58,163 nucleotides of DNA from a virus (IMGVR_UViG_3300017917_000687:1-58163), one strand, 5' to 3'. Shown: positions 19,301 through 44,360, counted from the first letter of the stretch. Numbers and translations are program-made. The notes: generated by a model not told the origin, from the letters alone.

Positions 19301-22278
19301 CCCGCTACAACCCGGTGCTCGATCGCTGGTCGATCTTCACTGCCACTGGTCCTGACATCCGCCAAGGGTTCAACACCGCCATCGAAGCCGACTTCGAAAA
19401 GGTGGTCACGACCATGCGCAAGATGGGCCGCGTTGAGCGACGTCTGCGCTCTGGCGTGTACGTGGACAACAAGATTCCGTCCGACCTGGCCAAGATTCCA
19501 GACTTCCGCATCCTGTCTGAGGACATCAACTTCACCAGCGTCGAGGGCTTGAAGAACGCCTGGAAGCTGGTCAAGCGCAACGGCGCCATCAGCCTCCAGA
19601 ACGAGTACATCCCGGTGTTCGAGGTGGTCAACCACCTGGAGCGCCAGGGCAAGATCGCCGAAGCGTTCGATGTGCGCGGCGACCTCGAGGGCCTGTACGA
19701 GCGCCGCACCGGAGCCAAGCTCGAGAAGTACCGCAAGCAGTACGAGAAGCCGCTGATGAAGCTGGTCGAGCAGCTCGGCAAGGAAGGTGGCAACACGACC
19801 CTCGCCGAAGCGTTCCCCAGCCTTGCGGCCTCGTTCAAGGACAGCCGCCTGGGCAACCTCAGTTTGATCGACGCCTACCTGGGCGCACGTCACGCGCACG
19901 AGCGTAACGCCCAGATCGCTGGCATAAACAAGGATCGCCCCGAGAAGCAGGACGGCGGCTCTGGCATCTTCAATGCTGACGCAGACCTGATCCTCAACAC
20001 GCTGTCCCGTCAGCCCTACGCCAACACGCTCAGCGAGATGACTCACATCCTCCAGGAGATGTCGTCCATCAAGCTCGACGAGATGTACCAGTCGGGCATG
20101 ATCGGCAAGAAGGAGCTCGAGGACCGTAGCAAGTACAAGTACTACGTCAACCTGTCCGGCATCAACGACAAGATTGACCAGTTCGACAACCCCGTGATCC
20201 TGGCAGGCGGTCCTAAGTTCGGCACTCGCAAGGACATGAGGGCATACGGTCGCGGCGACGCTGCCACCAACGTGCTTGTCCGCACTCTTCAGTCGTTTGA
20301 GTCTGCCGTGATCCACGCCGAGAAGAACAAGGTCAAGCAGAAGGTGCTGGCCATGTTCGAGATCAACTACGACCCCGACTTCGTGGTTATCAACAAGCAG
20401 GCGATGGTGCGCAAGCTCGACGAGAACGGGCAGGTCACCGAGGCCACTGACGACAAGTACCTCCAGAACCGCGACGTGATGGTCGTGCATGTGAGGGGCA
20501 AGCCCGTCACGATGGAGTTCAAGCAGAAGGGTCCTGGCTCTTTTGCCGAGGCCATCAACGGGATGATCTGGCCCCCGCAGGCAACCGACCCAATCCAGCG
20601 TTTTGCTGGTCGCGCCAACCAGATCATGGGCCAGATGCTGACCACCTGGAACCCGGCCTGGGTGGCGGTCAACTACACCCGTGACTTGCAGAGCATGTAC
20701 TTCAACGCCGTCACCGAGGGGAAGATCACCCGCGAGATGGCCAAGGAGATGATCAAGCTCCAGATTCCAGCCATGAAGGCTGCGTTCCACATCGCCACGG
20801 ATGGCAAGAAGGGAGCCACCGCACGGCAAGACATGCTCGACGCATACAACGAGATGCGCGATGCCGGTGGTGCAACCAGCTTCCTGAACCTGCGCAGCCT
20901 GGAGAACCAGGTGCAGGAGCTCGAGCGCCTGATGGACCCCAAGAAGCCCGGAGGTATCAAGCAGTTCGCCGTTGCGGCCGCCGACTTCATGGAGTCGTAC
21001 ACCATCCCGGTCGAAATGGCTCCGCGTATCGCCGCCTTCAAGGTCATGAAGGACAACGGCTACAGCGCCGAGGAGGCCGCACGGTTTGCCGGTGACATCA
21101 CCGTGAACTTCAACATGCGCGGCTCGAACAAGCTCATGCGCAACCTGTTCCTGTTCTTCAACCCTGCCGTGCAGGGCGCGAACAAGATGTACCGCCTGGC
21201 CAAGGAGAACCCCAAGACGTTCGGCAAGATTGCGATGGGCATGGCCGTGTTCGGCTTCATGACCAACATCATTGCTCGCGCTCTGGGCGGCGAGGACGAC
21301 GACGGCATCGACAAGCTCGATAAGGTGCCGGTGTTCAAGCGCGCCACGTCCATCGTGCTGTGGCCTGACATGCCGTTCGCCGCGATCCCGATCCCGTACG
21401 GCTGGAACGCCTTCTACGCCGCAGGCAACTTCATGGCGGACACCCTCTGGGCTGGATCGCAGTCGGCGTCCACCACCGCCAAGCGGATCGCTGGCACGGC
21501 CTTCGAGTCGTTCTCTCCGCTGGGTGGCGCCATGCTGGATGCAAGCAGCACCGGAGTCGGCGTCCTGAAGACCGTCACCCCGACCGTCTTCTCCCCGGTG
21601 GTGGACCTGATCCTCAACGAGAACCGCTTCGGCGCACCCATCGCCAAGGAGGCCTCGATGTTCGGCGGGGCAAAGCGCTCGGACGCCCACATGAACTTCG
21701 ACTCGGCTAGCCCGATCTCGACTGCCGTGTTCCGTGGGCTGAACAAGCTGACCGGCGGCGACAAGGTTGAGTCCGGCGTCATCGACGTCAACCCCGGCGC
21801 GTTCGACTACCTGGTCAGCGGCTACATGCCTGGCCTGGCCGCAGAGACCTACAAGCTCGCCTCATGGGCGACTCGCAAGGCTCTGGGCTACGACACCAAG
21901 GAGGCCGCGATCCCGATCGTCGACCGCCTGACCGCCAAGATTCCCGAGGGCTACAACTTCGGGATGCTGCGCAGGGCCGAGACGTTCATCAAGACCAAGG
22001 TGGACGACTACGAGATCAACAAGGGCAAGCGCGAGGACATCCTCAAGGAGTACCCGAACCTGGGCACGGCCAAGTCGATCATCGCCGCGACCGACTACCA
22101 GATCGGCCAGCTCCGGCAGGCTCGCAACCAGCTCGAGGAAGCGGACATGCCCGAGGACAGGAAGGTCGAGATGTACAACCTGAGCCGCCAGCGCGAGAAG
22201 GAGATCGTGGCCAGGTCCGTGCAGCTCCTGCTCCAGACCAACCCGCAGATGCGCAAGGTCCTGCTGGCCAACGACTGA
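13303..22278 (+). CDS. Giant polyvalent virion protein with two metallopeptidase-like motifs and an LPD38-like C-terminal domain
   Basis: 2,991 residues, 15% of the genome. Residues about 170-232 form a Gly/Ala-rich hydrophobic stretch that could insert in a membrane. Residues about 680-830 form a zincin-like domain with HEVYH (757-761) and a possible third ligand near 806-810. Residues about 1755-1900 carry HEVQGH (1855-1860), the HExxGH variant seen in polyvalent proteins. Residues about 2440-2720 match the large-polyvalent-protein-associated domain LPD38 (FMESYTIPVEMAPRIAAF, then FLFFNPAVQG, then hydrophobic segments). Such proteins are packaged and injected with phage DNA (established for the class). 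Likely roles here are genome ejection and early takeover in the cell. Confidence 0.9.
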   Translation: MTVPVFDLGAGATSEPAPRRGLTGPREVPVFDLSGESQPTETIYKDKSDADRDVVAARYRAMFGMEKKEEPPKRGLTGVLSDLGTSLFEGAKSTGRSLGAAGNTITGDLKDVEQYGEAQRAAAVNEPQAKRALMDEIEARKQADKDPGVLSAIRNVGAAMANNPEGAAQFIAEQAPNSVVSLGAGLAGAKALGTAGLAFGPAGAAIGGVTGFLGGMFLGNFMLETGGNAIEKSKGGFTQDERGEALREGAVKGGVITGVDAVTLGAGGKLAKTLNKAALEAGAKAEAKVLADAGVDVTSRAAIERALANPEIRASAKEAGRLAAKEASTVGSKVARAGAAITTETAGEGLGEYLGELAATGKSDVYGAVMEAAAGFTQSAPEAAYTLSKTSGNDLDAKGIQSAKLDPAAPPAPGTQAPPAAPPVDPNAPLPKSELEGMPRMSWMEMNETLQANPGVLAVLQQDAQTDAERDIVNKAIARSEVGDLVQQIAESPERLNAARAQLSSEEYVDFMDDVRSSLEQYATAMPPSGTFKAPTPEQERLNFLNEAQSNEDFQRQQDEEAELIRADAAAQQMSVRKTAAPAQETGGVDVANMTTPDGTVVPLDESNRAGYEAYFAGRGADINGLTNPAVRQSAMQNVMQEMAKVGFTPEESREILNREEPSAPVTGREGTFENLSQTMSREFGEPVENFRQTKAPKYFQRIGNLFGVNIVAYNYTGKNPAIRKKAGRYIAGANGKGTVLLNLTTADNAALFVLGHEVYHDLERRFPQQAQQLALEIKSYLSSTAQQRYKQFYEGRGQAGKTDSEITADVMGVMFTDRKFWEQLGQRNPSLLDRVLSVLNTIIDSFRANAGNSRQQIGKEIAQFEKVRDMMAEFASQGIGQTAQTRGRAQPAAAPAQVSDMDEMPERSKADEIAYQKVIEHLRNGKDFLAVSVWKGQKLGAKGFGKLEDVIQAVKAPQPEVRTPDGKRADERKRYGDYVNREGQLVRNPNAAQVARTDETPISDDQEGMTFTSPAPQPKGKKAKKAPSPNDVRVETAPEELGLPATFEESGGRRLDPAGTKSEPVERELDAPNKFESRPDQQYSIGVGRFSRTGLSDSQMRLRDKLEGLVRQFTRPKFFEDTVLLLQKQIADVDSRLKALNTLEVDGKKFYAKDEADEAPGLWGLYDENSYDRMEKGFRPDKPTTKDELLAARRQLSSELEQVREKSISAKARLFNKARARLLDEIYKAVDIATAGGMKRAKALETASPFLSSLQFDRRGNTQEEILRMRSEQVNAEREAAEEAFDIPEQMGMFDGARVVMGLIYDTARKGPAPVSDNRSAKEQANDAGKIDVKIGSRPELLRLLERGLRDGDFSYDDVDNAFRALRLDLPRIIMDVGGQLAMRKRLKTHLEESGAARFARMEWLVSMDRVLRARPGLRDQFTPGEIAAYEQAFALRSVLKTRRDDVEEQRVGDTVEDAFPAFLFNNYTLDQASKDRELNKWLEGQGRNAWLEDVAYALRARPDLSDQILSKLGEDRAAFDAHIDRIKAARDTDSLIAAKAPAFAELRNMDYLRKIVMDDQSLTNEDRRRILSGEFGPSALINSAPGQAVNDYERVYKTIANSELAELPGIRDTIAKVQALVSGIDPDTGEIFQNREEAEAAAADFVDSVFMNADMTAASRSNLGMKYRPDVGFGMSVEAAGDRDLGLPSQVYDTDQTLEDLQNAGLITEADVESMSNLERFGLDEDSELTDDGNEGAAQDVAADEADSSAGTARIPRALRGGEEYRFRKGFFNGNLVPAVVSEHLNKIASRWAGAPNMVIVPNVQSLPAELLEKVMAKLGSNMFAKGLYYNGDVYIFTDHAESLADAEFTLFHEVQGHFGMRAFLGADFDAYLDRLYKTNPDIRRAADQRMAEDPMGPLEAVDEVLADMQVDGRNQGMFQAYVGKVIAGLRKIGMERVANWIASQGNFEVAYLLRGAKDAVRRGDRPSIGAPDDLRLASTRTPYELFSAKDGKTVAYARYNPVLDRWSIFTATGPDIRQGFNTAIEADFEKVVTTMRKMGRVERRLRSGVYVDNKIPSDLAKIPDFRILSEDINFTSVEGLKNAWKLVKRNGAISLQNEYIPVFEVVNHLERQGKIAEAFDVRGDLEGLYERRTGAKLEKYRKQYEKPLMKLVEQLGKEGGNTTLAEAFPSLAASFKDSRLGNLSLIDAYLGARHAHERNAQIAGINKDRPEKQDGGSGIFNADADLILNTLSRQPYANTLSEMTHILQEMSSIKLDEMYQSGMIGKKELEDRSKYKYYVNLSGINDKIDQFDNPVILAGGPKFGTRKDMRAYGRGDAATNVLVRTLQSFESAVIHAEKNKVKQKVLAMFEINYDPDFVVINKQAMVRKLDENGQVTEATDDKYLQNRDVMVVHVRGKPVTMEFKQKGPGSFAEAINGMIWPPQATDPIQRFAGRANQIMGQMLTTWNPAWVAVNYTRDLQSMYFNAVTEGKITREMAKEMIKLQIPAMKAAFHIATDGKKGATARQDMLDAYNEMRDAGGATSFLNLRSLENQVQELERLMDPKKPGGIKQFAVAAADFMESYTIPVEMAPRIAAFKVMKDNGYSAEEAARFAGDITVNFNMRGSNKLMRNLFLFFNPAVQGANKMYRLAKENPKTFGKIAMGMAVFGFMTNIIARALGGEDDDGIDKLDKVPVFKRATSIVLWPDMPFAAIPIPYGWNAFYAAGNFMADTLWAGSQSASTTAKRIAGTAFESFSPLGGAMLDASSTGVGVLKTVTPTVFSPVVDLILNENRFGAPIAKEASMFGGAKRSDAHMNFDSASPISTAVFRGLNKLTGGDKVESGVIDVNPGAFDYLVSGYMPGLAAETYKLASWATRKALGYDTKEAAIPIVDRLTAKIPEGYNFGMLRRAETFIKTKVDDYEINKGKREDILKEYPNLGTAKSIIAATDYQIGQLRQARNQLEEADMPEDRKVEMYNLSRQREKEIVARSVQLLLQTNPQMRKVLLAND

Positions 22279-22407
22279 GGTGTGTCATTTTCAGACAGTT
22301 GCAGTGCGTATCTGGGCGTACAAGGAGAGCGGCCTTCGTACGGTAGGTTGTTGATTCCACTACACCCAGCTACACACTACTACCTGTCTGCACACCCCGG
22401 AGACCGG

Positions 22408-22452
22408 CTGTTAATCCGTAGGTCCCTGGTTCGAGCCCAGGTCGGGGAGCCA
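22408..22452 (+). other. attP core: 3' half of a tRNA-Asn gene
   Basis: The run from CTGTTAATCC (anticodon GTT with its loop) through GGTTCGAGCCC (T-arm) to GGGGAGCCA is the 3' half of a bacterial tRNA-Asn including the encoded CCA. No 5' half lies upstream, so it is not a full tRNA. It sits 82 bases from the end of the integrase gene. The standard reading is that integration into the host tRNA-Asn gene recreates an intact tRNA from this phage-borne 3' end. The true core may extend a few bases either side. Confidence 0.88.
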
Positions 22453-22491
22453 AATAAATCAAGCACTTAGAGCAAGTTGCTTGAGCCCTCT

Positions 22492-22533: not shown

Positions 22534-23613
22534 CTAAGCCACCGCCTCAAGGAACGGCCGGGCCAACCCGTTACCAACCCCAGGCTGCGACGCGATCATC
22601 TGCTCGATCACGAACGCATGCTGCGCCAGGTGCGAGACGTTCAGATGGGCATACCGCTGCACCATCTCCACCGACTTCCACCCGCCCAGCTCCTGCAACC
22701 GGTCCAGACTCACCCCCGACTGACGCAACCACGAGGCCCAGGTGTGCCTCAGGTCATGCCAGCGCAGGTCAACTAGCCCCGCCACCTCCAGCGCCTTCCT
22801 CCACATCTTGGGCGGGATGTCGGAAATCTCCTGCCCATCGAGCCGAGGAAACACCAGCTCCTTGTGCAACCCCATCTGCGCCTTGACCGCCGCCTGCGCA
22901 GTCGGCGACAGCGGGATGGAAAACGGCAAGCCGTTCTTCATCACTTGCTGCGGGAAGGTCGCCACCGTCAGCCCACCCTGCACCGACAGATTGCTCCAGC
23001 GAAGCCCAAACACGTTGGCCCGCCGCAGCCCCGTGGTCACCGCAAACCTCGCGGCCGAACCGTACGGCTCGGGCAACGCCCTGGCCAACCGCTCGAACTC
23101 CGGAGGGGTGAGGAACCTCATCCGCCAGTCCCCCTCCTCAAGCATCTTGAACTTGGGTGACATCGGAATCCACAACCACTCCCGAGCCGCCGCCAGCATC
23201 ACCGACCGCAGGAACGCCAAGTGCCTGTTGACGGTGGCCGGCTGGACCACGCCCTCGCCCCGCAGCTTGGGGCGCCCAACCTCTTCGTCCCGAATGTCGG
23301 CGACCACATCAGGCGTCACCTCATCGAGGTAGTTCACACCCACCTCGGCCAGCTCACGCTTCCAGAATGCGTCGTACCGCAGATCATCCTGGTGGCTGCG
23401 CTTGTCCCGGTGCTCGGCCAGCCACTTGTTGGCGGCTTCCTCCCAGGTGTGCCTCGGCTTTTGCTTCAACACCCGCTGACTCCAAGCCTCGTGCTTGAGC
23501 TTGTCGTGCAGCTCCTGTGCGGCAGACTCATCCTCGGTCTTGCATGAGCCGCGATACATCCGGCCCTTCACAGAAAACGAGTACCACCACACGTTCCCAC
23601 GGCGATGAATCGT
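22534..23613 (-). CDS. int: Tyrosine-family site-specific integrase
   Basis: 359 residues from the ATG at 23613 (ribosome site GGAG 6 bases upstream; the longer frame from 23649 lacks one). An N-terminal arm-type DNA-binding part with AP2-like look (RRGNVWWYSFSVKGRMYRGS) is followed by a SAM-like core-binding domain and a C-terminal catalytic domain. Catalytic residues visible: Arg in TTGLRRANVFGLRW, HxxR in WHDLRHTWASWL, the later Trp/His region GGWKSVEMVQRYAHL with the nucleophile Tyr. Next to attP in tRNA-Asn, as expected for a temperate phage. Confidence 0.95.
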   Translation of the reverse strand, partial: TIHRRGNVWWYSFSVKGRMYRGSCKTEDESAAQELHDKLKHEAWSQRVLKQKPRHTWEEAANKWLAEHRDKRSHQDDLRYDAFWKRELAEVGVNYLDEVTPDVVADIRDEEVGRPKLRGEGVVQPATVNRHLAFLRSVMLAAAREWLWIPMSPKFKMLEEGDWRMRFLTPPEFERLARALPEPYGSAARFAVTTGLRRANVFGLRWSNLSVQGGLTVATFPQQVMKNGLPFSIPLSPTAQAAVKAQMGLHKELVFPRLDGQEISDIPPKMWRKALEVAGLVDLRWHDLRHTWASWLRQSGVSLDRLQELGGWKSVEMVQRYAHLNVSHLAQHAFVIEQMIASQPGVGNGLARPFLEAVA

Positions 23614-23666
23614 CATGACTTCTCCGATCCGCCGAAGGCCGCGTTGCAAGAATACAACGGCCTGCG

Positions 23667-28446: not shown

Positions 28447-28776
28447 GGGTTCTCCGTGGTTGGGTTCACAATCTCTTGCGATAGTTTTTTTCTTCTTGAC
28501 TATCGCGGCGACTTGTGAAGCGGATTGTAGTTGCAGGAGCAACAGGGTTGCGTAGGTAGTTCCACCAATGGCAGACGACTAAGTGCGCCAGATAATGCAA
28601 CCCCTTGTTTCGCCTACGTTTTTTTAGATGTTCAACCGAGTTCTTGGGTAGTTCCAAAGTTCTCGGCGCAGCTTAACAAAAGGGTCGGCGGTACGCAGAG
28701 GGCCGGCAATGCTCATACCTATCTAATAGGTGTTCGCTATTGCTACACACAGCAACGTAGAACTACACGGAGAGAA
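28447..28776. promoter_or_regulatory. Divergent early control region with palindromes
   Basis: 330 bases without a gene between the leftward erf and rightward primase operons; AT-rich relative to the genome. Inverted repeats seen: GCGATAGT/ACTATCGC (28478-28485 and 28499-28506, 13-base spacer), GTTGC-AGGA-GCAAC (28530-28543) with another GTTGC at 28548, ACCTAT-CTA-ATAGGT (28717-28731), and TTGCT/AGCAA (28740-28755). GGTAGTTCCA occurs twice (28555 and 28648). I see no clear consensus sigma-70 promoter, although TTGACT at 28496 is a possible -35 box. Probable operators and divergent promoters. Confidence 0.7.
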
Positions 28777-32968: not shown

Positions 32969-33322
32969 TTACTGGAAAAACTCCTTGATGCGCTGCCACA
33001 GGGAGCGCTCAGGGCCACGAATGATGGTGATCGAGCCCGGCTCCACCAGCACGGGCTCGGGCAGGCTCATCTTGAGCTGCTCAGGATCACTGCTTTTGCG
33101 CCGGTGCTTGACCTTCTCTGGCTTGGTGGTGCGTGCCTTGGTGTAGTCGTCAAAGCCTGGCCATACACCAGCACCACGCAAGACCCCGTAGATGGTTCCC
33201 TTTGGGCGCTTCATTGCGCTGGCGATCTCCTTGACGTTGCCAGCCCCAGACGTCCAAAGCTCCAGTATGTTTCGGCGCTCGGACGGAGTGACGCGGATGT
33301 ACTTGGTTCCAGTTCTGCTCAT
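32969..33322 (-). CDS. Helix-turn-helix DNA-binding protein
   Basis: 117 residues from ATG 33322, which overlaps the stop of the next upstream gene (ATGA); the longer frame starting at 33406 has no such support. Residues about 10-52 read as a homeodomain-like helix-turn-helix (SERRNILELWTSGAGNVKEI, ASAMKRPKGTIYGVLRGAG). The rest is basic and probably extended. Last gene of the leftward block; a regulator of lysogeny or accessory genes is possible, and it is one of few repressor candidates. Confidence 0.75.
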   Translation of the reverse strand: MSRTGTKYIRVTPSERRNILELWTSGAGNVKEIASAMKRPKGTIYGVLRGAGVWPGFDDYTKARTTKPEKVKHRRKSSDPEQLKMSLPEPVLVEPGSITIIRGPERSLWQRIKEFFQ

Positions 33323-33522
33323 AACTGAAATGTCTTTCTGAGGAATGCCTCCTTGTTCCTGCGCCAGCGGTGATCGCTTGGTGAGACAGGAAAGATGACG
33401 TTGCAAGACTGGTCACCCTTTCGGATGACCGCCTTGATATGCTTGCCGCTCTGCTCCATGACCTCGAGCCGTAGCCCGAGGCCTTTGATGAGTCGACGAA
33501 TTTCTAGGTGGTGGCGGTCCAC
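33319..33522 (-). CDS. Small basic protein with HicA-like look
   Basis: 67 residues: GLGLRLEVMEQSGKHIKAVI then FPVSPSDHRWRRN. The GKH-x-x-A plus later PSDHR pattern belongs to a widespread small phage family with a dsRBD-like alpha-beta fold, distantly similar to HicA toxins. Catalytic His of HicA may correspond to that in GKH. No HicB partner is evident next to it. Function unknown. Confidence 0.7.
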   Translation of the reverse strand: MDRHHLEIRRLIKGLGLRLEVMEQSGKHIKAVIRKGDQSCNVIFPVSPSDHRWRRNKEAFLRKTFQL

Positions 33523-33770
33523 TCCTTTCCCTTCTTGATGTTTACTTCCTCCGGTGGGTAGCCGTCCGGATACTGGATGTATCCGTTGCTGGTGATGGTC
33601 GTATCCGGGTGAACGCGGAAGGACATCATTACCGGAGAGTGTGTGATGCGCTGGACTCGTTGGCGTGCGACCTCAACGGACGGCCCTCTTGCGCGAGAGC
33701 CGTCTTTGCACACCAGCAGATACTCCAGCTCGACAGGCTTATGACTGATTGCCTTCATTGCTGGCGTCAT
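33504..33770 (-). CDS. Hypothetical protein
   Basis: 88 residues. LEYLLVCKDGSRARGPSVEVAR followed by a beta-rich part; no known motif. Overlaps the next gene by 19 bases and the previous by 32 in a different frame, showing tight packing. Confidence 0.65.
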   Translation of the reverse strand: MTPAMKAISHKPVELEYLLVCKDGSRARGPSVEVARQRVQRITHSPVMMSFRVHPDTTITSNGYIQYPDGYPPEEVNIKKGKEWTATT

Positions 33771-33930
33771 TGACTGTCTGGATGAGGCTTGTAAGTTCGC
33801 TGTGAATCGGTGTTGGTATCAGATCAATCTCCTTCATGTCGTTGAGTGCGATGTTGATCTGGAGAAGACGGAATACGTCAGCCGACGCATCCGTAATCTC
33901 CAGCTTGACGTGTTCCTTCCAGTGGTCCAT
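33739..33930 (-). CDS. Small acidic protein beside amidotransferase/amidoligase pair
   Basis: 63 residues from ATG 33930 (strong ribosome site GGGAGGG); the longer frame upstream is a shadow of the amidotransferase gene. Sequence MDHWKEHVKLEITDASADV is helical and acidic, ending DASNEGNQS. Immediately downstream of the amidotransferase gene (13-base gap), so probably the third gene of that operon. It could be a substrate or carrier peptide, but nothing in the sequence shows that. Confidence 0.68.
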   Translation of the reverse strand: MDHWKEHVKLEITDASADVFRLLQINIALNDMKEIDLIPTPIHSELTSLIQTVNDASNEGNQS

Positions 33931-33943
33931 TTCCCTCCCGTGC

Positions 33944-34930
33944 TTAGCTGATGAGGCTGGGCGTGATGGAGTCGGTGGCGAACAGGTCGGCGATCCACTC
34001 GGCTGCCGTGTCCGGGAACTCGTCGACCAGGTCCTCGACGTCATCGACGTCGTCGTACCAGTACGAGAGCAGCGCTGCCGCCTTGTGCGGTGCGTCGAAC
34101 ACCCACTGCTCGACACCAGCTACTCCGCGACGCGACCACTGGTTGTGTGCCGCCTTGACGTACGGGCTGATCTGCGCTGCGGTGTACGTCTGCTTGGGGA
34201 TTCCTTTGTAGCTGGACTTGGTGTCCTTGCTGTCTGAGATGTACGAACCCTTAGCCTCGGTCGTGCCGGTTCGCCAGGTGTCGTAGTAGTCCTCGAACTC
34301 GTCGTCAAAACGGCTGCGGTAGCCGCCGTACCCGGAGTACATGTTGGTGTAGCCGCCGGTGCGCTCTCCCGTGAACTTGTGATACGACCAGGCGTAGGTG
34401 TTGGACAGCCAGGCGTTCTGGTAGTTGACGCCAGCGTGTGCGTTGATCACCACGACCGCGCCGTCTGCACGCACCAGTGCGAACTTGTTGCTGCGGCCGA
34501 TGAGCTCGCCCACGAACTTCTGCCAGTTGACGTCGGTCAGCAGCTCGGGGTTGCCGATGAGCGCCGGACGGATGAAGTTCTGAATGAAGTGCCAGGTGTC
34601 GGACTTGGCCTTGTCTGCGGCGTTGCCGGTGGACAGGATGCCGTTGTGTGCGAGCCAGACGTCGTCGGTCACCTTGTAGGGGTGGCAGTTGTCGAAGTCG
34701 ATGTCGCCGTGCGTCTGCATGCGTGCGTGCCACACGCAGTTCTTGCCCTCGGCGTGCTTACGGTAGAAGTCGACGAACTCCTGCGCGTTGGCGGGCAGGC
34801 ACTTGAAGATGTGCAGCTTGTCGCCTTCGGCGTACATGATGCCGAGGCCGTCCTGGTTCTTGGTGTAGACGTCGGCGAGGAACTCATCGCTGAAGGTGGA
34901 CTGGGTGGTTTGCTGAACGAGAAGACACAT
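33944..34930 (-). CDS. Class II glutamine amidotransferase (Ntn hydrolase)
   Basis: 328 residues beginning MCLLVQQ; Cys2 becomes the N-terminal nucleophile. Conserved blocks of the GATase II fold: GLGIMYAEGDKL, VWHARMQTHGDIDFDN, WLAHNGIL, and FALVRADGAVVVIN. About 190 residues are catalytic; the C-terminal 140 residues are Tyr/Gly/Asp-rich and novel to me. GATase II supplies ammonia from glutamine. It lies 28 bases downstream of a predicted amidoligase, matching the phage amidoligase-amidotransferase modules predicted by comparative genomics. Confidence 0.86.
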   Translation of the reverse strand: MCLLVQQTTQSTFSDEFLADVYTKNQDGLGIMYAEGDKLHIFKCLPANAQEFVDFYRKHAEGKNCVWHARMQTHGDIDFDNCHPYKVTDDVWLAHNGILSTGNAADKAKSDTWHFIQNFIRPALIGNPELLTDVNWQKFVGELIGRSNKFALVRADGAVVVINAHAGVNYQNAWLSNTYAWSYHKFTGERTGGYTNMYSGYGGYRSRFDDEFEDYYDTWRTGTTEAKGSYISDSKDTKSSYKGIPKQTYTAAQISPYVKAAHNQWSRRGVAGVEQWVFDAPHKAAALLSYWYDDVDDVEDLVDEFPDTAAEWIADLFATDSITPSLIS

Positions 34931-34958
34931 GTTGGTATTTCCTTGGTTGGGTGTTTGC

Positions 34959-36299
34959 TTAGGCGGTCTCGAGACGGTTCTCGAGATACGGGACGAGCAT
35001 GTCGGTGTCGCCGGACTCGTCGGACCGGATGAAGTCCATGAACTTGTCGGCCTTGAGCTGGCGGATCGACGTGGTCGAGCGGCCGCAGAACTCGACGAGA
35101 GCGTTCGAGAACTGGATCGCAGCCATGACCGACTCGTACTTGAGACTGCCCTTGAAGATGCGGAACTCGATGGTCTTGCGCGGCGTGATGTTCACCGCCT
35201 CGTACCGGTCGTTGGACTCTGCCGACTGGCCGATCTTCTTGTCCTTAATTTGGCAGTAGCCCTCGGCGTAGCGGCGGGCGACAGCACGGATCAGGTCGGC
35301 GTTGTCCGGATCGTTGACGAACGACACGATCTTGGCGATCTGCAACTTCGACAGCCCCTCCTTGCTGACGTGGATGTGCAGGCCACAGGTTGTAGTGTTG
35401 TGCGAGCGCAGGCTGCGGACGGCGTTCTTGTCTTTGAGCCAGGCCCAAAGATCACGATGCTTGTCCAGACCCATGGGCTGGCTAATGATCTCGAAGCCGT
35501 TGCTTAGTGAGCCGTCGTTCTCGAAGAACACGTTGGCGCCGAACTGCTCGTTGTTGATGAGCTTGTGCAGCTCCAGCGCCTTGTCACTGCGGTTGTTCTC
35601 TCTGAGTACTTCGACCTCAAGCTCGACGCCGAGGTAGCGCTTCTTCATCCGGGTCCAGTCGCTGACCTGAGGACGCTGCGATCCCTTGCTGCTGTGGTAG
35701 TTGCCGATGACCCGAGAAGCCGGGCTGTAGTCGACGTGGTAGTACTCATCGTTGTTGTCGTCGTACTCGAAGTTGTCGTCGTCTTCGTGGAAGACGCAGC
35801 GGTTGCCGTACTGGTCGTAGCCGTCTCGTGAACTGTCGGAGTAGACGTATTCATCGTAGTAATCGGACCAGCGGTAGCTGTTCTCGATGCAGTTACGGCA
35901 GACATCTGCGGTGTCATCGGAGTAGTGGCTGCGCACCTGATTGCGCAATTCCCACTCACCGCAGTCGTCGCAGCGGACGATGATGTCGCGGTTATGCAGG
36001 TAGTCGATGCATTCTTCGGAGTCGTCGGCGCATTCGTACTTGCTGAACCAGTCGCTGAAGTCTCCGATCTCGTAGCTGCTGTAGCGATCAAGCCATAGCC
36101 TAAGGTGCAGCAGCATGCAGCCTTCTTCTCCGTTCATGCCCGACTGGACAAGGGACTTGATGCCAGTGAGGTGGCAGATGTCGAAGAGTTGATCGACGTC
36201 GCCGCCTTGTAGTGCCCGATTGGTAACGAGCGTTGCGAACCTGAGCTTCTCTGCGTAGCTTGCTGCGGCCAGGCGTTCCAGGTATGGATAGTTCTTCAT
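34959..36299 (-). CDS. Predicted amidoligase (COOH-NH2 ligase, GCS/GS-like fold) with zinc ribbon and acidic insert
   Basis: 446 residues. Residues 1-90: helical domain. Cys110, Cys113, Cys134 and Cys137 form a zinc ribbon. Residues 141-192 are extremely Asp/Tyr-rich (YDEYVYSDSS, EDDDNFEYDDNNDEYYHVDY). From residue 222: the amidoligase core with GVELEVE (224-230), ENDGSL (260-265), GFEIISQP, CGLHIHVS (305-312) and TIEFRIFKGS (376-385). These are the metal and ATP-site motifs of the predicted COOH-NH2 ligases. It likely joins an amine or ammonia to a carboxylate of a peptide or cell-wall component; the actual substrate is unknown. Starts after its own terminator and leader. Confidence 0.85.
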   Translation of the reverse strand: MKNYPYLERLAAASYAEKLRFATLVTNRALQGGDVDQLFDICHLTGIKSLVQSGMNGEEGCMLLHLRLWLDRYSSYEIGDFSDWFSKYECADDSEECIDYLHNRDIIVRCDDCGEWELRNQVRSHYSDDTADVCRNCIENSYRWSDYYDEYVYSDSSRDGYDQYGNRCVFHEDDDNFEYDDNNDEYYHVDYSPASRVIGNYHSSKGSQRPQVSDWTRMKKRYLGVELEVEVLRENNRSDKALELHKLINNEQFGANVFFENDGSLSNGFEIISQPMGLDKHRDLWAWLKDKNAVRSLRSHNTTTCGLHIHVSKEGLSKLQIAKIVSFVNDPDNADLIRAVARRYAEGYCQIKDKKIGQSAESNDRYEAVNITPRKTIEFRIFKGSLKYESVMAAIQFSNALVEFCGRSTTSIRQLKADKFMDFIRSDESGDTDMLVPYLENRLETA

Positions 36300-36304
36300 A
36301 GACC

Positions 36305-36316
36305 TTCCGTGGTTGG
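36305..36316 (-). promoter_or_regulatory. Shared leader motif CCAACCACGGA before amidoligase
   Basis: Minus-strand CCAACCACGGAA directly before the amidoligase ATG; ACGGA serves as ribosome site. Near-identical leaders stand before erf (28453-28464), the amidotransferase (34939-34951) and the 43514 gene (43496-43506). Confidence 0.6.
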
Positions 36317-36342
36317 AAATAAAAAACCCGCCGATTGGCGGG
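36317..36342 (-). terminator. Terminator before amidoligase
   Basis: Minus-strand stem CCCGCC/GGCGGG with AATC loop and TTTTTTATTT tail. Another hairpin (CCCTCCT/AGGAGGG) lies at 36388-36408, in the 125-base gap between 36299 and 36425, which holds no gene. Confidence 0.88.
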
Positions 36343-36424
36343 TCACGAAATGTGCAGACAGCTCTACTTACAAACAGCAGGAGGGGCTACCCTCCTCCGA
36401 AAGGAGGGAAGCCACTCCCATGAA

Positions 36425-36901
36425 TCACCCCACGGCTGGAAGCACCCTTGCTTTCCTTAGCTTGAGCTGTTGCAACACGTAGTCGAGTGCTGCCTCGAGC
36501 TCGGCGACGGTGCAAATCTCAAGCTGCGCGTCGTGTACTTCCATCGCCGTGTTTAGAGCAACGAGCTCTGGCCCGGTGAGCACGAAGCGTTTGTGCTCGA
36601 CGGCACGATGGCAGCACGCATAGATGGCGTCTTGCGCCGCTCTGATCTCAGTCTTGTACTCGTCGCCAATGCGCTTGATAGCCAGTGCCTCTGTGACGTT
36701 GAGCGCCTCGATGATGATGCTGATGACATCCTTGTCTGCCTTTCCTTGGCGCAGGAGATCGACTGCGTTGTGGTTCTTGATCCGGGTGTTGAGGATGATC
36801 GAGCCGCCGCCAACCTCAGCTGCCTTGAGCATGCCGCTCTTGAGCCACGCCATGACGTCGAGCCTGACTCCCTTGGGTTTGTACTTGCTGCGCTTTCTCA
36901 C
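36425..36901 (-). CDS. Conserved phage hypothetical protein
   Basis: 158 residues from GTG 36901 (ribosome site GGAGGGCGGGC; GTGA overlap with the previous stop). The N-terminal RKRSKYKPKGVRLDVMAWL followed by LNTRIKNHNAVDLLRQGKA is a conserved pattern in many phages; all helical. Function unknown. The longer frame to 37171 is a shadow. Confidence 0.8.
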   Translation of the reverse strand: MRKRSKYKPKGVRLDVMAWLKSGMLKAAEVGGGSIILNTRIKNHNAVDLLRQGKADKDVISIIIEALNVTEALAIKRIGDEYKTEIRAAQDAIYACCHRAVEHKRFVLTGPELVALNTAMEVHDAQLEICTVAELEAALDYVLQQLKLRKARVLPAVG

Positions 36902-37047
36902 GCCCGCCCTCCGTTTTTCTCGCGCAGCTCTGCATCGATGGCGGCGATCAGCTGCATGCCGCTGTACTGTGAAGTCAGGAGGACGATGTCGGCGTTGCTG
37001 CCTGGCAGTGCGGCCAGGACGATTGCCCTGTACGCACGCTTGGTCAT
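36898..37047 (-). CDS. Small hypothetical protein
   Basis: 49 residues (MTKRAYRAIVLAALPGSNAD...). Ribosome site GGAAGAGG 5 bases upstream; both ends overlap neighbours by 4 bases (ATGA, GTGA), which supports it strongly despite its size. Not recognised. Confidence 0.7.
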   Translation of the reverse strand: MTKRAYRAIVLAALPGSNADIVLLTSQYSGMQLIAAIDAELREKNGGRA

Positions 37048-37220
37048 GCTGGCCTCTTCCATGTGACGGTTGCCTCAGCGGCGTACCAACCAAGCGCCTT
37101 GTGATCGTCGATCTCAACCTGGTCTGGCCAGCCGAGAGCGATGGTCCACGCGTGAGCCTCATCCTTGGCATGGCCGAGCCAGTAGACGCCGCCTGGTGAG
37201 ACGATGACCCAGGGCATCAT
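37044..37220 (-). CDS. Small hypothetical protein, Trp-rich
   Basis: 58 residues from ATG 37220 (ATGATG overlapping the previous stop). Beta-rich, with several Trp (PWVIVSPGGVYWLGHAKDEA, ALGWYAAEATVTWKRP). Related in look to small phage proteins annotated as unknown. Confidence 0.65.
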   Translation of the reverse strand: MMPWVIVSPGGVYWLGHAKDEAHAWTIALGWPDQVEIDDHKALGWYAAEATVTWKRPA

Positions 37221-37399
37221 TTGCCGTCCTCCCGGTTGATCGGGATGTACTGGCAGTTCTCGTCGAACGAGTTGACGCACTCGAACTGCGGCGTGCGTGG
37301 ACCCCAGGTCTGATCCTCGTGATTGGCCCAGCGTTGGCAGCGTTTGCAGTTGTGATCAGGCAAGGTGACGTTGCACCTGGCGTAGTCATACGGCAGCAC
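37217..37399 (-). CDS. Small cysteine-containing protein
   Basis: 60 residues from a GTG at 37399 (GGAGAC upstream); an ATG at 37453 is possible but lies deep in the previous gene. CKRCQRWANHED with further Cys (ARCNVTLP, FECVNSFDENCQY) suggests a metal site. Not recognised. Confidence 0.6.
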   Translation of the reverse strand: MLPYDYARCNVTLPDHNCKRCQRWANHEDQTWGPRTPQFECVNSFDENCQYIPINREDGK

Positions 37400-37880
37400 G
37401 CTTGTCTCCTTTCGGCCAGCCAAGCTTGGCAAGATCAGATACGACGTTGGCAATCACTGGCAGAGAGCGATCAACTGGAGACATGTCCTTTGGCGCGTAC
37501 TTTTCAAACTCAGGGAATGCCTTGATGAATGACTTGATGGTGGTGCATGCCATGACAGCGCTTTTGAGCTGCTCACGCGCTGCCCTGATGTCTTCATCCT
37601 CTTTCTTGAACTTAGCGAGTGCCTCAGTAACCACTGAACTTGGAGCGTCGCCAATCACAACTGTTCTGCTACTCCAGTTCATGTCGTCGTAGATGATGTC
37701 GCCGACATGATGTGTCGCAAGCGCATGAGGTGTGCGCTTGAAAATCTTGCGGCACTCAGGTGACATCGCTTTGACGACGGCGTCCTGAACGATCTGCTTG
37801 CGCTTTGATTTGTCAGGCTTGGGTACATCAGCCATCACTGCACGCACGATGGCTTCCTTCTGGTACTTCTGAAGTCTCAT
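37386..37880 (-). CDS. Possible Nmad5-type (nucleotide-modification-associated) protein
   Basis: 164 residues from ATG 37880 (GGAGAACCGAGGA upstream). The start MRLQKYQKEAIVRAVMADV and the later segment LKSAVMACTTIKSFIKAFPE followed by FEKYAPKD resemble my memory of the Nmad5 family. Nmad domains were predicted from gene neighbourhoods of DNA-modification clusters. No modification enzyme is evident nearby. Family call tentative; gene call firm. Confidence 0.65.
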   Translation of the reverse strand: MRLQKYQKEAIVRAVMADVPKPDKSKRKQIVQDAVVKAMSPECRKIFKRTPHALATHHVGDIIYDDMNWSSRTVVIGDAPSSVVTEALAKFKKEDEDIRAAREQLKSAVMACTTIKSFIKAFPEFEKYAPKDMSPVDRSLPVIANVVSDLAKLGWPKGDKRAAV

Positions 37881-38038
37881 TCCTCGGTTCTCCTTTCGAT
37901 CGGCTTGGCCAGCAACCAATTGTCGCCGAGCAGGCGAACCTGGCGCACCCACTGACGCTGGTACGAGCGGTTGTGCTCACGCGGGATGAGCGGGTTGTTG
38001 AAGTGTTGGCGCACACGGCGCAGGACTGTGGTGTTCAT
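37877..38038 (-). CDS. Small basic hypothetical protein
   Basis: 53 residues, Arg/Gln-rich (TVLRRVRQHFNNPLIPREHN). Strong ribosome site AAGGAGTGATC before ATG and an ATGA overlap with the next gene support it. Possibly nucleic-acid binding. Confidence 0.68.
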   Translation of the reverse strand: MNTTVLRRVRQHFNNPLIPREHNRSYQRQWVRQVRLLGDNWLLAKPIERRTEE

Positions 38039-38040
38039 GA

Positions 38041-38472
38041 TCACTCCTTCTTCAGCAGTTTCTTGACGCCGCTTTGTTCAGCCTCGAACACGCGGTCGAT
38101 CCACTCGGTCAGCTCCCTTGCAAAGTTCTCTGTGTCCTCGATCAGGCCCAGCGCATCGCAGTACTCGTTGAGCAGTGACGCCATCATCGAGGAGTGTGCG
38201 TGGCCAGCCAGCGTCACGGGAATCTCCGACTTCGGCTCTGCCTGGATGATCATCTGGCTGAGCGCCGCGTTGACGTGGACTGCCTTGTTCACGGTCAGTC
38301 CGAAGTCCACAGCCATCAGGTACTTCTCACCCTTGATGGCTCGGATGTTCTCCCTGATCTCGTGAGCAGACTCGAGTGCCTTGTCCAGTTCGTTGTCTGG
38401 CTTGGCCCTCTCTTCTGCCTCGAGCTGCGCGTTGATTTTCGCTATGGTTTCAGCGTCGACGTTGATGTTCAT
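38041..38472 (-). CDS. Acidic helical hypothetical protein
   Basis: 143 residues, alpha-helical throughout, no motif recognised. Directly preceded on the minus strand by a terminator and a TTTACACGA element, so it is probably the first gene of a transcription unit. Confidence 0.72.
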   Translation of the reverse strand: MNINVDAETIAKINAQLEAEERAKPDNELDKALESAHEIRENIRAIKGEKYLMAVDFGLTVNKAVHVNAALSQMIIQAEPKSEIPVTLAGHAHSSMMASLLNEYCDALGLIEDTENFARELTEWIDRVFEAEQSGVKKLLKKE

Positions 38473-38483
38473 TTGTGTTGCCT

Positions 38484-38507
38484 TACGTGTAAAGATTGAG
38501 ACGGGAT
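38484..38507 (-). promoter_or_regulatory. TTTACACGA element
   Basis: Minus-strand ATCCCGTCTCAATCTTTACA followed by CGTA, 12 bases before the ATG of the 38041-38472 gene and just after the terminator at 38515-38542. Confidence 0.6.
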
Positions 38508-38514
38508 TACCCCA

Positions 38515-38542
38515 CTGAAATGAAAACGCCCCCGAAGGGGCG
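38515..38542 (-). terminator. Rho-independent terminator
   Basis: Minus-strand stem CGCCCC/GGGGCG, TTCG-type loop, then TTTTCATTTC. Confidence 0.82.
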
Positions 38543-38562
38543 CTGCTTGGCTCAGTTCACGA

Positions 38563-38712
38563 TCATGTGAACCAGAGGTAGACGCCGTGGATGATGCCGA
38601 TCGGAAAGCAGATCGCGCCAGCCAGGAGCAGCACCCAAGATGCAGTCTTGAAGCAGAAGAAGATGTGCGTGAGCCAGGACAGCAACGCGGTGATTCCAAT
38701 GATCCAGCCCAT
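38563..38712 (-). CDS. Small two-span membrane protein
   Basis: 49 residues: MGWIIGITALLSWLTHIFFC and ASWVLLLAGAICFPIGIIHG form two hydrophobic helices. Starts 2 bases after the previous stop; ends just before the terminator. Too short for most gene finders. May alter the host membrane. Confidence 0.65.
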   Translation of the reverse strand: MGWIIGITALLSWLTHIFFCFKTASWVLLLAGAICFPIGIIHGVYLWFT

Positions 38713-38714
38713 GA

Positions 38715-39119
38715 TTACCACCAGCAGTCGTAGACCACAGCTTGGCCATCGGCGATGGCGGCTCGTGCTTTGGTGACAAAGTCCCTGACCTCTTGAACCA
38801 GATCGTCTGTCATCTCTTCCTCTGAACCCCAGAAGAACCCCGAGGCTGGACGCAGGTCCTTGGCCTCATCCCAGAGTTTGTCCAGGTCGGCTGGCATGAG
38901 CCTGACGGTGTTGCAGTTGAACGGCATGGCGGTGCCACCCTTCCTGTAGTACAGGTCAGCCATCCACTGGTGCAGGTTGTTGAACTTGCGCCAGTAGGCG
39001 AACTCGGTGTCGACGCCGTCGCGTGCCTTGCCGTTCTCGAAGATCTGGTCGTTGAGATCGACCTGCTTGTCCCCGAGCCGATCGGCTGGCGCGGTGTACG
39101 CGTACATATCAAGACCCAT
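38715..39119 (-). CDS. Conserved MGLDMY-type phage protein
   Basis: 134 residues from ATG 39119 (CAAGGAGAAACAC upstream). The start MGLDMYAYTAP, the FAYWRKFNNLHQWMADLY core and the end AVVYDCWW characterise a common phage and prophage family of unknown function that I have seen misnamed after metabolic enzymes. Overlaps the previous gene by 11 bases. Confidence 0.82.
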   Translation of the reverse strand: MGLDMYAYTAPADRLGDKQVDLNDQIFENGKARDGVDTEFAYWRKFNNLHQWMADLYYRKGGTAMPFNCNTVRLMPADLDKLWDEAKDLRPASGFFWGSEEEMTDDLVQEVRDFVTKARAAIADGQAVVYDCWW

Positions 39120-39357
39120 GTGTTTCTCCTTGTTGCTCAATGTGTCGTTGTGCAGCCTTTAGCTTGAATCCAAGGCTGCGATTCTCTTTGGTGAGCTGCT
39201 TGACCTCTTCCTCCAGGGAGATCAGACGCAGTCGCATGTACTCGAGCTGCATGGCCTGAGCGTGGATCGTCTCGGTCTTCATGCGCTCGGTAGTCTTGGC
39301 CGCTTTCTCGGCCGCTGTTGCTGGCGCAGTTGCCAGGCCTCTGGCGAGCTCGCTCAT
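39109..39357 (-). CDS. Coiled-coil hypothetical protein
   Basis: 82 residues from ATG 39357 (ATGA overlap). Residues 30-78 form a continuous heptad pattern (MRLRLISLEEEVKQLTKENR) predicting a coiled-coil dimer. Not recognised. Confidence 0.7.
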   Translation of the reverse strand: MSELARGLATAPATAAEKAAKTTERMKTETIHAQAMQLEYMRLRLISLEEEVKQLTKENRSLGFKLKAAQRHIEQQGETHGS

Positions 39358-39572
39358 CCGCCCACCTCGCAGACGCCGCACCAGAACCAGGTGTTGTGGT
39401 TGCGCTCCGTGATCATTTGGTTGGCGTCAGCGCCGCAGTCGTTGCACGGCGGATGAGTTCTGCCCGTGTACTCAGGGCTGGTTGACCTGGTGACCGGCGT
39501 GCTGATCACCGGTCTGTCAAACATGGTGCTGGGCGTCGGCGTTCCCAGCCTGAAGTCCAGGCGGATGGTCAC
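39354..39572 (-). CDS. Small zinc-ribbon protein
   Basis: 72 residues from a GTG (GTGA overlap with the NinX-like gene). CNDCGADANQMITERNHN then FWCGVCEVGG give a four-Cys metal site in the C-terminal half; N-terminal half is Thr/Pro-rich. Confidence 0.7.
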   Translation of the reverse strand: MTIRLDFRLGTPTPSTMFDRPVISTPVTRSTSPEYTGRTHPPCNDCGADANQMITERNHNTWFWCGVCEVGG

Positions 39573-39892
39573 TTCAGATCCTCCGGCACTTCAATCTCGT
39601 CGCCCAGCTTGGATGCAACGTAGCACCGCATGGCTGCGATCAGGGGTGTAGGGCCGTCCTCGCAAAAGGTTGCCTTCGGGGTTGCTGCGCACCAGTGTTC
39701 GTTGCCACTGTCCCAAAACCAACCAAGTTTCTCCCGCTCAATAATCAGCCCGCCTTGGGCCCAGTCGGTGGAGTAGTTGACTCGGTTCAGGCGCTTGTAT
39801 GTGCGCCATGCCCGCATCTCTTTGCCATCGCATTTCGCCACCGCCCAATCGAGCGCGGCTCCGGTCAGTTCACTTGTCTTGATCTTCATCAT
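39569..39892 (-). CDS. NinX/DUF2591-like protein, copy 1
   Basis: 107 residues. MKIKTSELTGAALDWAVAKC, followed by NYSTDWAQGGLIIEREK and TPLIAAMRCYVASKLGDEIE: the DUF2591 pattern of lambda NinX. Function unknown; common in phage accessory blocks. A paralogue lies directly upstream at 39903-40244. Confidence 0.88.
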   Translation of the reverse strand: MMKIKTSELTGAALDWAVAKCDGKEMRAWRTYKRLNRVNYSTDWAQGGLIIEREKLGWFWDSGNEHWCAATPKATFCEDGPTPLIAAMRCYVASKLGDEIEVPEDLK

Positions 39893-39902
39893 CTTCTCCT
39901 TG

Positions 39903-40244
39903 TCAGTTAGTCAATTCATCAGGCACTTCGACGGTATCACCCAGCTTGCTTGCACAATAGCAGCGCATGGCTGCGATCAGAGGGGTGTCGCCAGTCATTC
40001 TGGCGGTGACGCGGGCGCCATCCAAAAAAGCAACCCAACGCCCGCCGCGCGTGCCTACGCGCATGGTTATGCGCTCCCGCTCAATGATCGGCCCGCCTTG
40101 TGACCAGTCGGTTGAATAGTTGCCATCGTTGGCCTCACGCATCCCGTCGATGTAGCTTTCCAATCTGTCGGCGCTTGCGCCTTCACACTTCGCCACCGCC
40201 CAATCGAGCGCGGCTCCTGTCAGTTCACTTGTCTTGAGAAGCAT
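39903..40244 (-). CDS. NinX/DUF2591-like protein, copy 2
   Basis: 113 residues from ATG 40244 (TGGAGGGACC upstream). MLLKTSELTGAALDWAVAKC, NYSTDWSQGGPIIERERI, TPLIAAMRCYCASKLGDTVE. Clear paralogue of the gene at 39569-39892: the ends are nearly identical and the middle (residues 24-40 and 60-80) has diverged. Confidence 0.88.
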   Translation of the reverse strand: MLLKTSELTGAALDWAVAKCEGASADRLESYIDGMREANDGNYSTDWSQGGPIIERERITMRVGTRGGRWVAFLDGARVTARMTGDTPLIAAMRCYCASKLGDTVEVPDELTN

Positions 40245-43034: not shown

Positions 43035-43513
43035 GGGTTAGATCGAAAAGTTGTTTGAGATCAATGGGTTGGAGAGATTGAGATGTTGGGGGTTATGGAA
43101 TAACCCACGAAGGAGCCGGATTCCATACGTTTTGGTCATCAATCCACCCAAGTAGGTGGCTACCTCTCTCCGCAGGAGAGGTAGACAACTACGCATTTAG
43201 TACACAGACGGTAGCTAACCCATTGAAAATGCTGGGGTTACTACGGATTACTGGTCAGTGCTGGAGGTAGTGGTGGTGGAGGCCCCCGGTATGGCCAGCC
43301 ATGGTAGTGATACGGGGGTATGAGGACTCCAGCACGTATAGGATCACTCGTACGAGTCCACTCATTTACCCCGTGTGACGCTTATTTAGGCCCGTGGCTG
43401 CGTTTTCCGGGGGTAGCCGGGGGGATACCCCCATGTGGACCAGAAAAACGCCCATAGGGGGGCCAAAGGAACCCCGGTTAGGATGATTTTCTGGATCAAC
43501 CACGGAGATAGAC
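43035..43513. promoter_or_regulatory. Structured non-coding divergent region
   Basis: 479 bases with no convincing gene between leftward and rightward units. It holds hairpins CTACCTCTC/GAGAGGTAG (43160-43184), a large nested fold (outer GTGCTGGAG 43258-43266 with CTCCAGCAC 43327-43335; inner CCCCC-GGTAT with ATACGGGGG; central ATGG/CCAT), and a second nested fold (GCGTTTT 43400-43406 with AAAACGC 43445-43451; GGGGGTA 43409-43415 with TACCCCC 43426-43432). Probably promoters plus a structured leader or small RNA. Confidence 0.65.
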
Positions 43514-43786
43514 ATGCTCAAAGCTCACGAAGTGCAGGCTTTCCTCAGGCAATTCGAGCCTTTGAGGGAGGTAATGGTCGAGGAGACCAGTCAATTTGTT
43601 TACGCCCCATGGCATGTGAAGCTTCATGGGACGGTTTTGGTCTATGGTGAGCCTCACGGCTTTGAGGCCGAGCTGGACTTGCGTGAGTTCGGTGGCCAGG
43701 ATGACCTGATGAAGCTGGCAAAGCAGCTTCTGTACGCCTTCGCTGGCGCTGCTGAACACGTCAAACGCGGTCAGGCTGTTGCTTAA
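43514..43786 (+). CDS. Conserved-looking hypothetical protein
   Basis: 90 residues (MLKAHEVQAFLRQFEPL...), alpha-beta, acidic. The leader CAACCACGGAGATAGAC is nearly the same as that before erf, amidoligase and amidotransferase. Isolated rightward gene between two non-coding regions, perhaps a regulator of packaging or late expression. Not recognised. Confidence 0.75.
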   Translation: MLKAHEVQAFLRQFEPLREVMVEETSQFVYAPWHVKLHGTVLVYGEPHGFEAELDLREFGGQDDLMKLAKQLLYAFAGAAEHVKRGQAVA

Positions 43787-44274: not shown

Positions 44275-44360
44275 GGAGCTTGGCGTGCAGGGCACAAACG
44301 GGGCTTGAACCCCCGGCCACTTGGGGACAGGTGAGGGTTCGATTCCTTCAGGCTCCGCCA
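44275..44360 (+). tRNA. tRNA-Ser(TGA)
   Basis: 86 bases. Acceptor GGAGCTT/AGGCTCC with G discriminator and CCA; anticodon stem CGGGG/CCCCG with loop CTTGAAC (anticodon TGA); long variable arm ACTT/AGGT as in class II tRNAs; canonical T-loop TTCGATT. The D-arm (GTGC/GCAC) has a very short loop, which is odd. G73 and the long variable arm agree with serine. Confidence 0.78.

Follow-up and report, generated by a model that had tools for sequence, protein, structure and literature searches.

A two-gene amidoligase and class II glutamine amidotransferase module in a podovirus-like phage genome

Gene pairs encoding an amidoligase and a glutamine amidotransferase have been annotated in phages for more than 10 years and have been credited with either cell-wall modification or nitrogen metabolism. 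Iyer et al. 2009, as summarized in PMC10580990 and PMC11318856, predicted that the phage amidoligase and amidotransferase modify the cell wall as a guard against superinfection. A larger cassette of two amidoligases, an ATP-grasp protein, GGCT, and an amidotransferase is found in RIO-1-like, LUZ24-like, and phiEco32-like podoviruses (PMC5498523), and Phage-ZRK32 is described in part of PMC10945688 as having amidoligase, amidotransferase, GGCT, and glutathione-synthase-like genes. Marvin and the OM43 phages were already known to carry a reduced form with two genes (PMC10580990). Outside the phage pairs, MurT-GatD amidates the D-Glu of peptidoglycan (PMC3267633). The portions of the cited literature that treat the phage pairs report no substrate or enzyme test, in line with the original prediction for the present locus, which was made from the DNA alone and described the phage examples as lacking known substrates.

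Here we analyzed one such pair in a 58,163-base virus record with a GC content of 60%, the whole of which is referred to as the window. The window contains podovirus-like genes for a terminase, portal, capsid, and internal virion proteins. Its portal best matches those of Rhizobium phages at 34% identity, with the HMO-2011 type more distant, and no close relative among cultured phages turned up in a DNA-level search. An integrase gene lies beside a stretch that resembles the 3' half of a tRNA-Asn (22402-22453 and 22534-23649, minus strand). By inspection, this half comprises a CTGTTAATC anticodon loop, a T arm, and a GGGGAGCCA end; ARAGORN called no full tRNA there. The stretch is probably the phage attachment site, and the phage is therefore likely temperate. 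A complete tRNA-Ser(TGA) is located just upstream of the terminase gene (44275-44360, plus strand), and Rfam gave no match anywhere in the window. Two other genes are worth recording: one for a 2,991-aa protein (13303-22278, plus strand) with LPD38, a large polyvalent protein associated domain, near its C-terminus, and one for an Nmad5 (nucleotide modification associated) protein (37386-37952, minus strand; E 3.6e-12), about 1 kb upstream of the module. PADLOC returned no defence-system match.

The module is a block of three genes on the minus strand. The amidoligase gene (34959-36299) encodes a 446-aa protein of Pfam family Amidoligase_2 (PF12224). It is separated by a 28-nt spacer (34931-34958) from the class II glutamine amidotransferase gene (33944-34930), the 328-aa product of which starts MCLLVQQT and has Cys2 as its nucleophile. 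The third gene (33739-33930) is an ATG ORF of 63 codons plus a stop, preceded by a GGGAGG ribosome site. The 28-base gap, the Cys2 nucleophile, and the strong ribosome site of the 63-residue gene were thus all read correctly in the original prediction. Judged by their sequences, all three genes evolve under purifying selection, with dN/dS values against the relative L001 of 0.27, 0.17, and 0.12 for the amidoligase, amidotransferase, and 63-aa genes, respectively.

The locus most resembles the two-gene form. Mycobacterium phage Marvin gp105-106 and Methylophilales phages MEP401/402 have the same two families in the same order and on the same strand, with zinc-ribbon cysteines before the catalytic domain and without GGCT, ATP-grasp, or the second ligase COOH-NH2_lig (PF14395); searches of Marvin, MEP402, and MW202733 gave no matches to any of these three. 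The window differs from Marvin and MEP401/402 in that amidoligase identity is only 26-28% and in the presence of the 63-aa gene, no homologue of which was found in those loci. With the LUZ24/tf/PSA-HP1/phiEco32-type cassette, the window shares an Amidoligase_2 protein, a class II amidotransferase, a small gene, and a position close to replication genes. Unlike that cassette, it has no matches to PF14395, to ATP-grasp (query LUZ24 gp21), or to GGCT/AIG2 (PF06094), whereas PF14395 and PF06094 were detected in LUZ24 and tf as positive controls, and the tf control for ATP-grasp scored 2.9e-93. The LUZ24 amidoligase is itself very distant, at 22 bits to a model of the window amidoligase family. The module is a reduced form related to the LUZ24/phiEco32-type cassette and groups with the two-gene Marvin/OM43 form; this kind of gene pair has already been described, and the window adds another member.

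The amidoligase matches PF12224 with an E value of 1.7e-9 and 38.4 bits (cut-off 22). The GVELEVE (224-230 region), CGLHIHVS (305-312), and TIEFR (376-380) motifs on which the ligase had been predicted are all present in the 446-aa ORF. Across 50 phage homologues, the window included, G224, E226, E228, D262, G263, S264, E270, H308, H310, R343, N370, T376, E378, and R380 are invariant, and with them the ExE, HxH (GxHxH), and ExR active-site motifs. In a profile alignment to bacterial GS, GVELEVE falls on the ExE strand, CGLHIHVS on GSGMHVHVS, and TIEFR on RVEFR; the score is weak (P 0.006) and the GS profile thin, but the three motifs all pair up in order, consistent with the fold result. The AF2 model (pLDDT 90.2) was matched by Foldseek to GmaS, gamma-glutamylmethylamide synthetase, at E 2.8e-6, and to GS, YbdK, PafA, and Dop at E values below 1e-3. 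VIA-align gave Z scores of 13.5 to YbdK (1r8g; 213 residues, 3.8 Å), 12.7 to plant glutamate-cysteine ligase, and about 12 to glutamine synthetases, with the structural matches covering residues 213-446. A PDB profile search with the amidoligase alignment returned only chance hits, though the fold search was clear. Looking for the lack of a GCS/GS-like active site, we found instead the GS/GCS fold with invariant motifs. From its motifs and predicted structure, the protein is a GS/GCS-fold amidoligase with complete motifs, and its most likely activity is ATP-dependent carboxylate-amine ligation.

The catalytic domain (approximately 213-446) is preceded by an N-terminal helical region (1-103), a zinc ribbon (C110/C113/C134/C137), and an acidic, Tyr/Asp-rich beta region (141-192). 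Both the ribbon and the acidic insert had been noted from the sequence, and both are present. Among the 50 amidoligase homologues, C113, C134, and C137 are invariant and C110 is lost in some. The further suggestion that the insert could be the acceptor did not hold up: the region is predicted to be folded into short beta strands, with 10-residue blocks at pLDDT 87-96, and in homologues it is non-acidic or carries extra cysteine pairs. Its D/E content is 18-32% in the nearest clades and 7-14%, or weakly acidic, in others; further cysteine pairs replace it in L060, L065, and L089; and one bacterial relative has LIM-like zinc units at this position. Given the model confidence and the variation among homologues, we reject the insert as a disordered acceptor. 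The insert may instead be a degenerate array of zinc units that binds a partner or the acceptor, and the zinc ribbon and beta region together probably recognize the acceptor.

The amidotransferase matches Pfam GATase_4 (PF13230) at E 6.1e-6 and 25.8 bits (cut-off 23). An NCBIfam search gave only weak GlmS matches far below cut-off. Its glutamine-site residues R..TH(G), HNG, and D are present and align to GlmS. Preservation of Cys2 was checked in the relatives, and the residue was found in 48/48 phage partners, in which N25, H68, R70, G97, D111, and N177 are likewise invariant; T73, H83, H95, and N96 are each missing or changed in one sequence only. Among the matches listed, Cys2 is also present in 74/74 bacterial partners. 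In the AF2 model (pLDDT 82.8), an Ntn domain (1-190) is followed by a disordered linker (193-240, very low confidence) and a C-terminal helical domain (251-318). Foldseek matched the model to the GlmS glutaminase domain (E 4.7e-7), and structural comparison gave Z 11.9 to EgtC and Z 11.5 to GlmS over residues 2-197. Residues and model agree that this is a class II (Ntn-hydrolase) amidotransferase with complete glutaminase residues, a predicted glutaminase.

Relatives were collected by scans of IMG/VR and of bacterial genomes, from each of which the best 80 were kept, so that the sample is biased to the closest. Among the matches listed, the amidotransferase gene adjoins the amidoligase gene on the same strand in 79/81 viral loci, and in the two exceptions (L084 and L086) the contig ends at the amidoligase. 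After dereplication, the pair is kept in 65/69 phage loci among the matches listed; no other real same-strand neighbour in these 69 loci is nearly as common. An amidotransferase neighbour is present in 76/80 of the listed bacterial loci, which are mostly from Clostridia with recombinase genes nearby. In 48 of these 80 Clostridia-type, mobile-element-like loci, a DUF960-family protein is encoded just upstream of the pair, a third partner that might give a clue to the substrate. The pairwise distances of amidoligase and amidotransferase are correlated (Mantel r 0.81, 0/5000 permutations), a value uncorrected for phage phylogeny. The pair occurs in phages of Mycobacterium, Methylophilales, Acinetobacter, and Clostridia. 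As far as gene sequence and order can tell, it is real and widespread in phages and co-inherited as neighbours. The enzyme assignments and the module as originally proposed are borne out by the family models, the invariance of the catalytic residues, the predicted folds, and the conservation of gene order. The phage amidoligases L014 and L017 have no such amidotransferase nearby, so the amidoligase fold can work with another donor. In L014 (Clostridioides phage AR1086-1, 4967-7776), the amidoligase gene is followed by that of an RlaP-type nucleotidyltransferase and preceded by one for a DUF1653 protein.

Homologues of the 63-aa protein were found as 16 other ORFs, or approximately 12 distinct loci, of the 81 viral loci. 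In the nearest relatives, they are mostly encoded directly after the amidotransferase gene; L024, where the homologue is upstream, and L048, where it is about 2.5 kb away, are exceptions. LUZ24 and tf also have a gene of 69-73 aa after the amidotransferase. The products of these genes, LUZ24 gp20 and tf_23, were considered as homologues and rejected for lack of detectable similarity. The 63-aa gene is conserved and real but is not an obligate part of the module, and its product may be a factor of the window's clade.

Each enzyme gene is preceded by a leader of the form CCAACCA(C/A)GGA: CCAACCACGGA before the amidoligase gene (36306-36316, minus strand), where the GGAAGG that follows is probably the ribosome site, and CCAACCAAGGA before the amidotransferase gene (34940-34950, minus strand). 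A third exact copy, of CCAACCACGGA, is found before the ERF recombinase gene (28453-28463, minus strand), and a copy with one mismatch precedes the ORF at 43514-43786 (43496-43506, plus strand). Because there are three exact copies against approximately 0.06 expected for two 11-mers by arithmetic estimate, the leader looks like an element common to several phage genes. It is not kept in relatives, where only the ribosome-site-like AAGGA part recurs. The shared leader that had been noticed before both enzyme genes is therefore genuine, but the joint control it was taken to suggest is not borne out, and with copies before unrelated genes and no conservation in relatives, we reject a module-specific control site. 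A terminator-like hairpin with a T-run (36325-36344, minus strand) is located some 25 nt upstream of the start codon of the amidoligase gene. This hairpin is kept in 10 phage leaders (the window, L001, L006, L007, L019-L023, and L033), across which the loops vary and some paired changes occur. The hairpin region has a folding z of -4.15, and a second strong hairpin lies upstream in the window. No sigma-70-like promoter was found in 33000-40000. Expression of the module by read-through, antitermination, or attenuation control is possible.

For the chemistry of the pair, we consider glutamine-dependent amidation of a carboxylate by a two-gene module to be the probable answer. The amidotransferase Cys2 would hydrolyze glutamine and release NH3, which, by analogy with GS chemistry and with the unrelated MurT-GatD, would be passed to the amidoligase. 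The amidoligase would phosphorylate the acceptor carboxylate with ATP and convert the resulting acyl phosphate into a primary amide. Such a product would differ in mass by -0.984 Da, the value to which the suggested search for a +17 adduct is to be corrected. Since the window has no second ligase, ATP-grasp, or GGCT, the amidoligase is the obvious partner of the amidotransferase. As a possible mode of action, MurT-GatD offers the same division of labor, in which a ligase and a separate glutaminase subunit bring about carboxylate amidation. MurT is similar to Mur ligases, and GatD belongs to the class I (triad) amidotransferases, whereas the window combines a GS-fold ligase with a class II Ntn amidotransferase; because both partner folds or classes differ, the two systems are analogous, not homologous.

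As acceptor, we tentatively rank host cell-envelope precursors, namely the carboxylates of the peptidoglycan stem peptide, first, on account of published proposals that are themselves predictions (PMC5498523, PMC10580990). Amidation of such precursors would change the envelope in the course of infection or lysogeny. Second comes a protein of the host or of the phage, and the wide host spread of the pair would also be compatible with a universal protein or metabolite as the target. A bolder version has a small chance of being right: the pair would amidate a specific host or phage macromolecule, through a protein modification or peptidoglycan amidation not known so far, with the zinc ribbon as targeting domain and the 63-aa protein as specificity factor or substrate, and would work as an exclusion or counter-defence device for temperate phages as well as for mobile elements of bacteria.

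The amidoligase could also join an amine-bearing amino acid or peptide to a carboxylate, with the amidotransferase-like protein trimming or feeding. Such peptide-type ligation would agree with YbdK as the top structural match by Z, glutamate-cysteine ligase next, and PafA and Dop among the Foldseek matches, as well as with the view that the LUZ24/RIO-1 type cassette makes unusual peptidoglycan linkages (PMC5498523). We nonetheless find it rather unlikely. The Z scores of YbdK and GS differ by only about 1, which is close to a tie, and the window lacks the remaining ligases of the large cassette. Ammonia as the group handed over is indicated by the glutaminase residues, which essentially all of the 48 partners preserve. 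That the pair instead feeds glutamine or glutamate nitrogen into amino acid supply during infection, as proposed in part of PMC10945688 for Planctomycete Phage-ZRK32, seems very unlikely: the relevant part of that study infers it from cultures to which phage was added and gives no test of enzymes or mutants, the window has neither the GGCT nor the ATP-grasp partner, and the conserved zinc-ribbon cysteines and N-terminal parts of the amidoligase are not obviously needed by a small-molecule enzyme.

A modified-small-protein system of three genes, with the 63-aa protein as dedicated acceptor, would account for the low dN/dS of the small gene, its conservation after the amidotransferase in the nearest relatives, and the placement of the small LUZ24 and tf genes. 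It is highly improbable given that the homologues are limited to about 12 of the 81 viral loci and are not always adjacent, that the LUZ24 and tf proteins are dissimilar, and that no conserved carboxyl-terminal motif was found in the 63-aa alignment. The protein had been put forward as a substrate to examine; its gene is conserved, but only a minority of module-bearing phages have it. DNA base hypermodification, which the Nmad5 gene upstream of the module brings to mind, is barely credible, as other base-modification enzymes were not found among the window proteins scanned and the same pair is present in bacterial genomes, at many loci with recombinase genes.

Glutamine-dependent amidation thus remains the reading we prefer for this compact, complete, and strongly conserved pair. 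Lacking the rest of the cassette enzymes, it offers a clean case with a defined chemistry, the formation of a primary amide (-0.98 Da). That phages of many lineages and mobile-element-like loci of bacteria carry the pair suggests that mobile DNA in general benefits from it.
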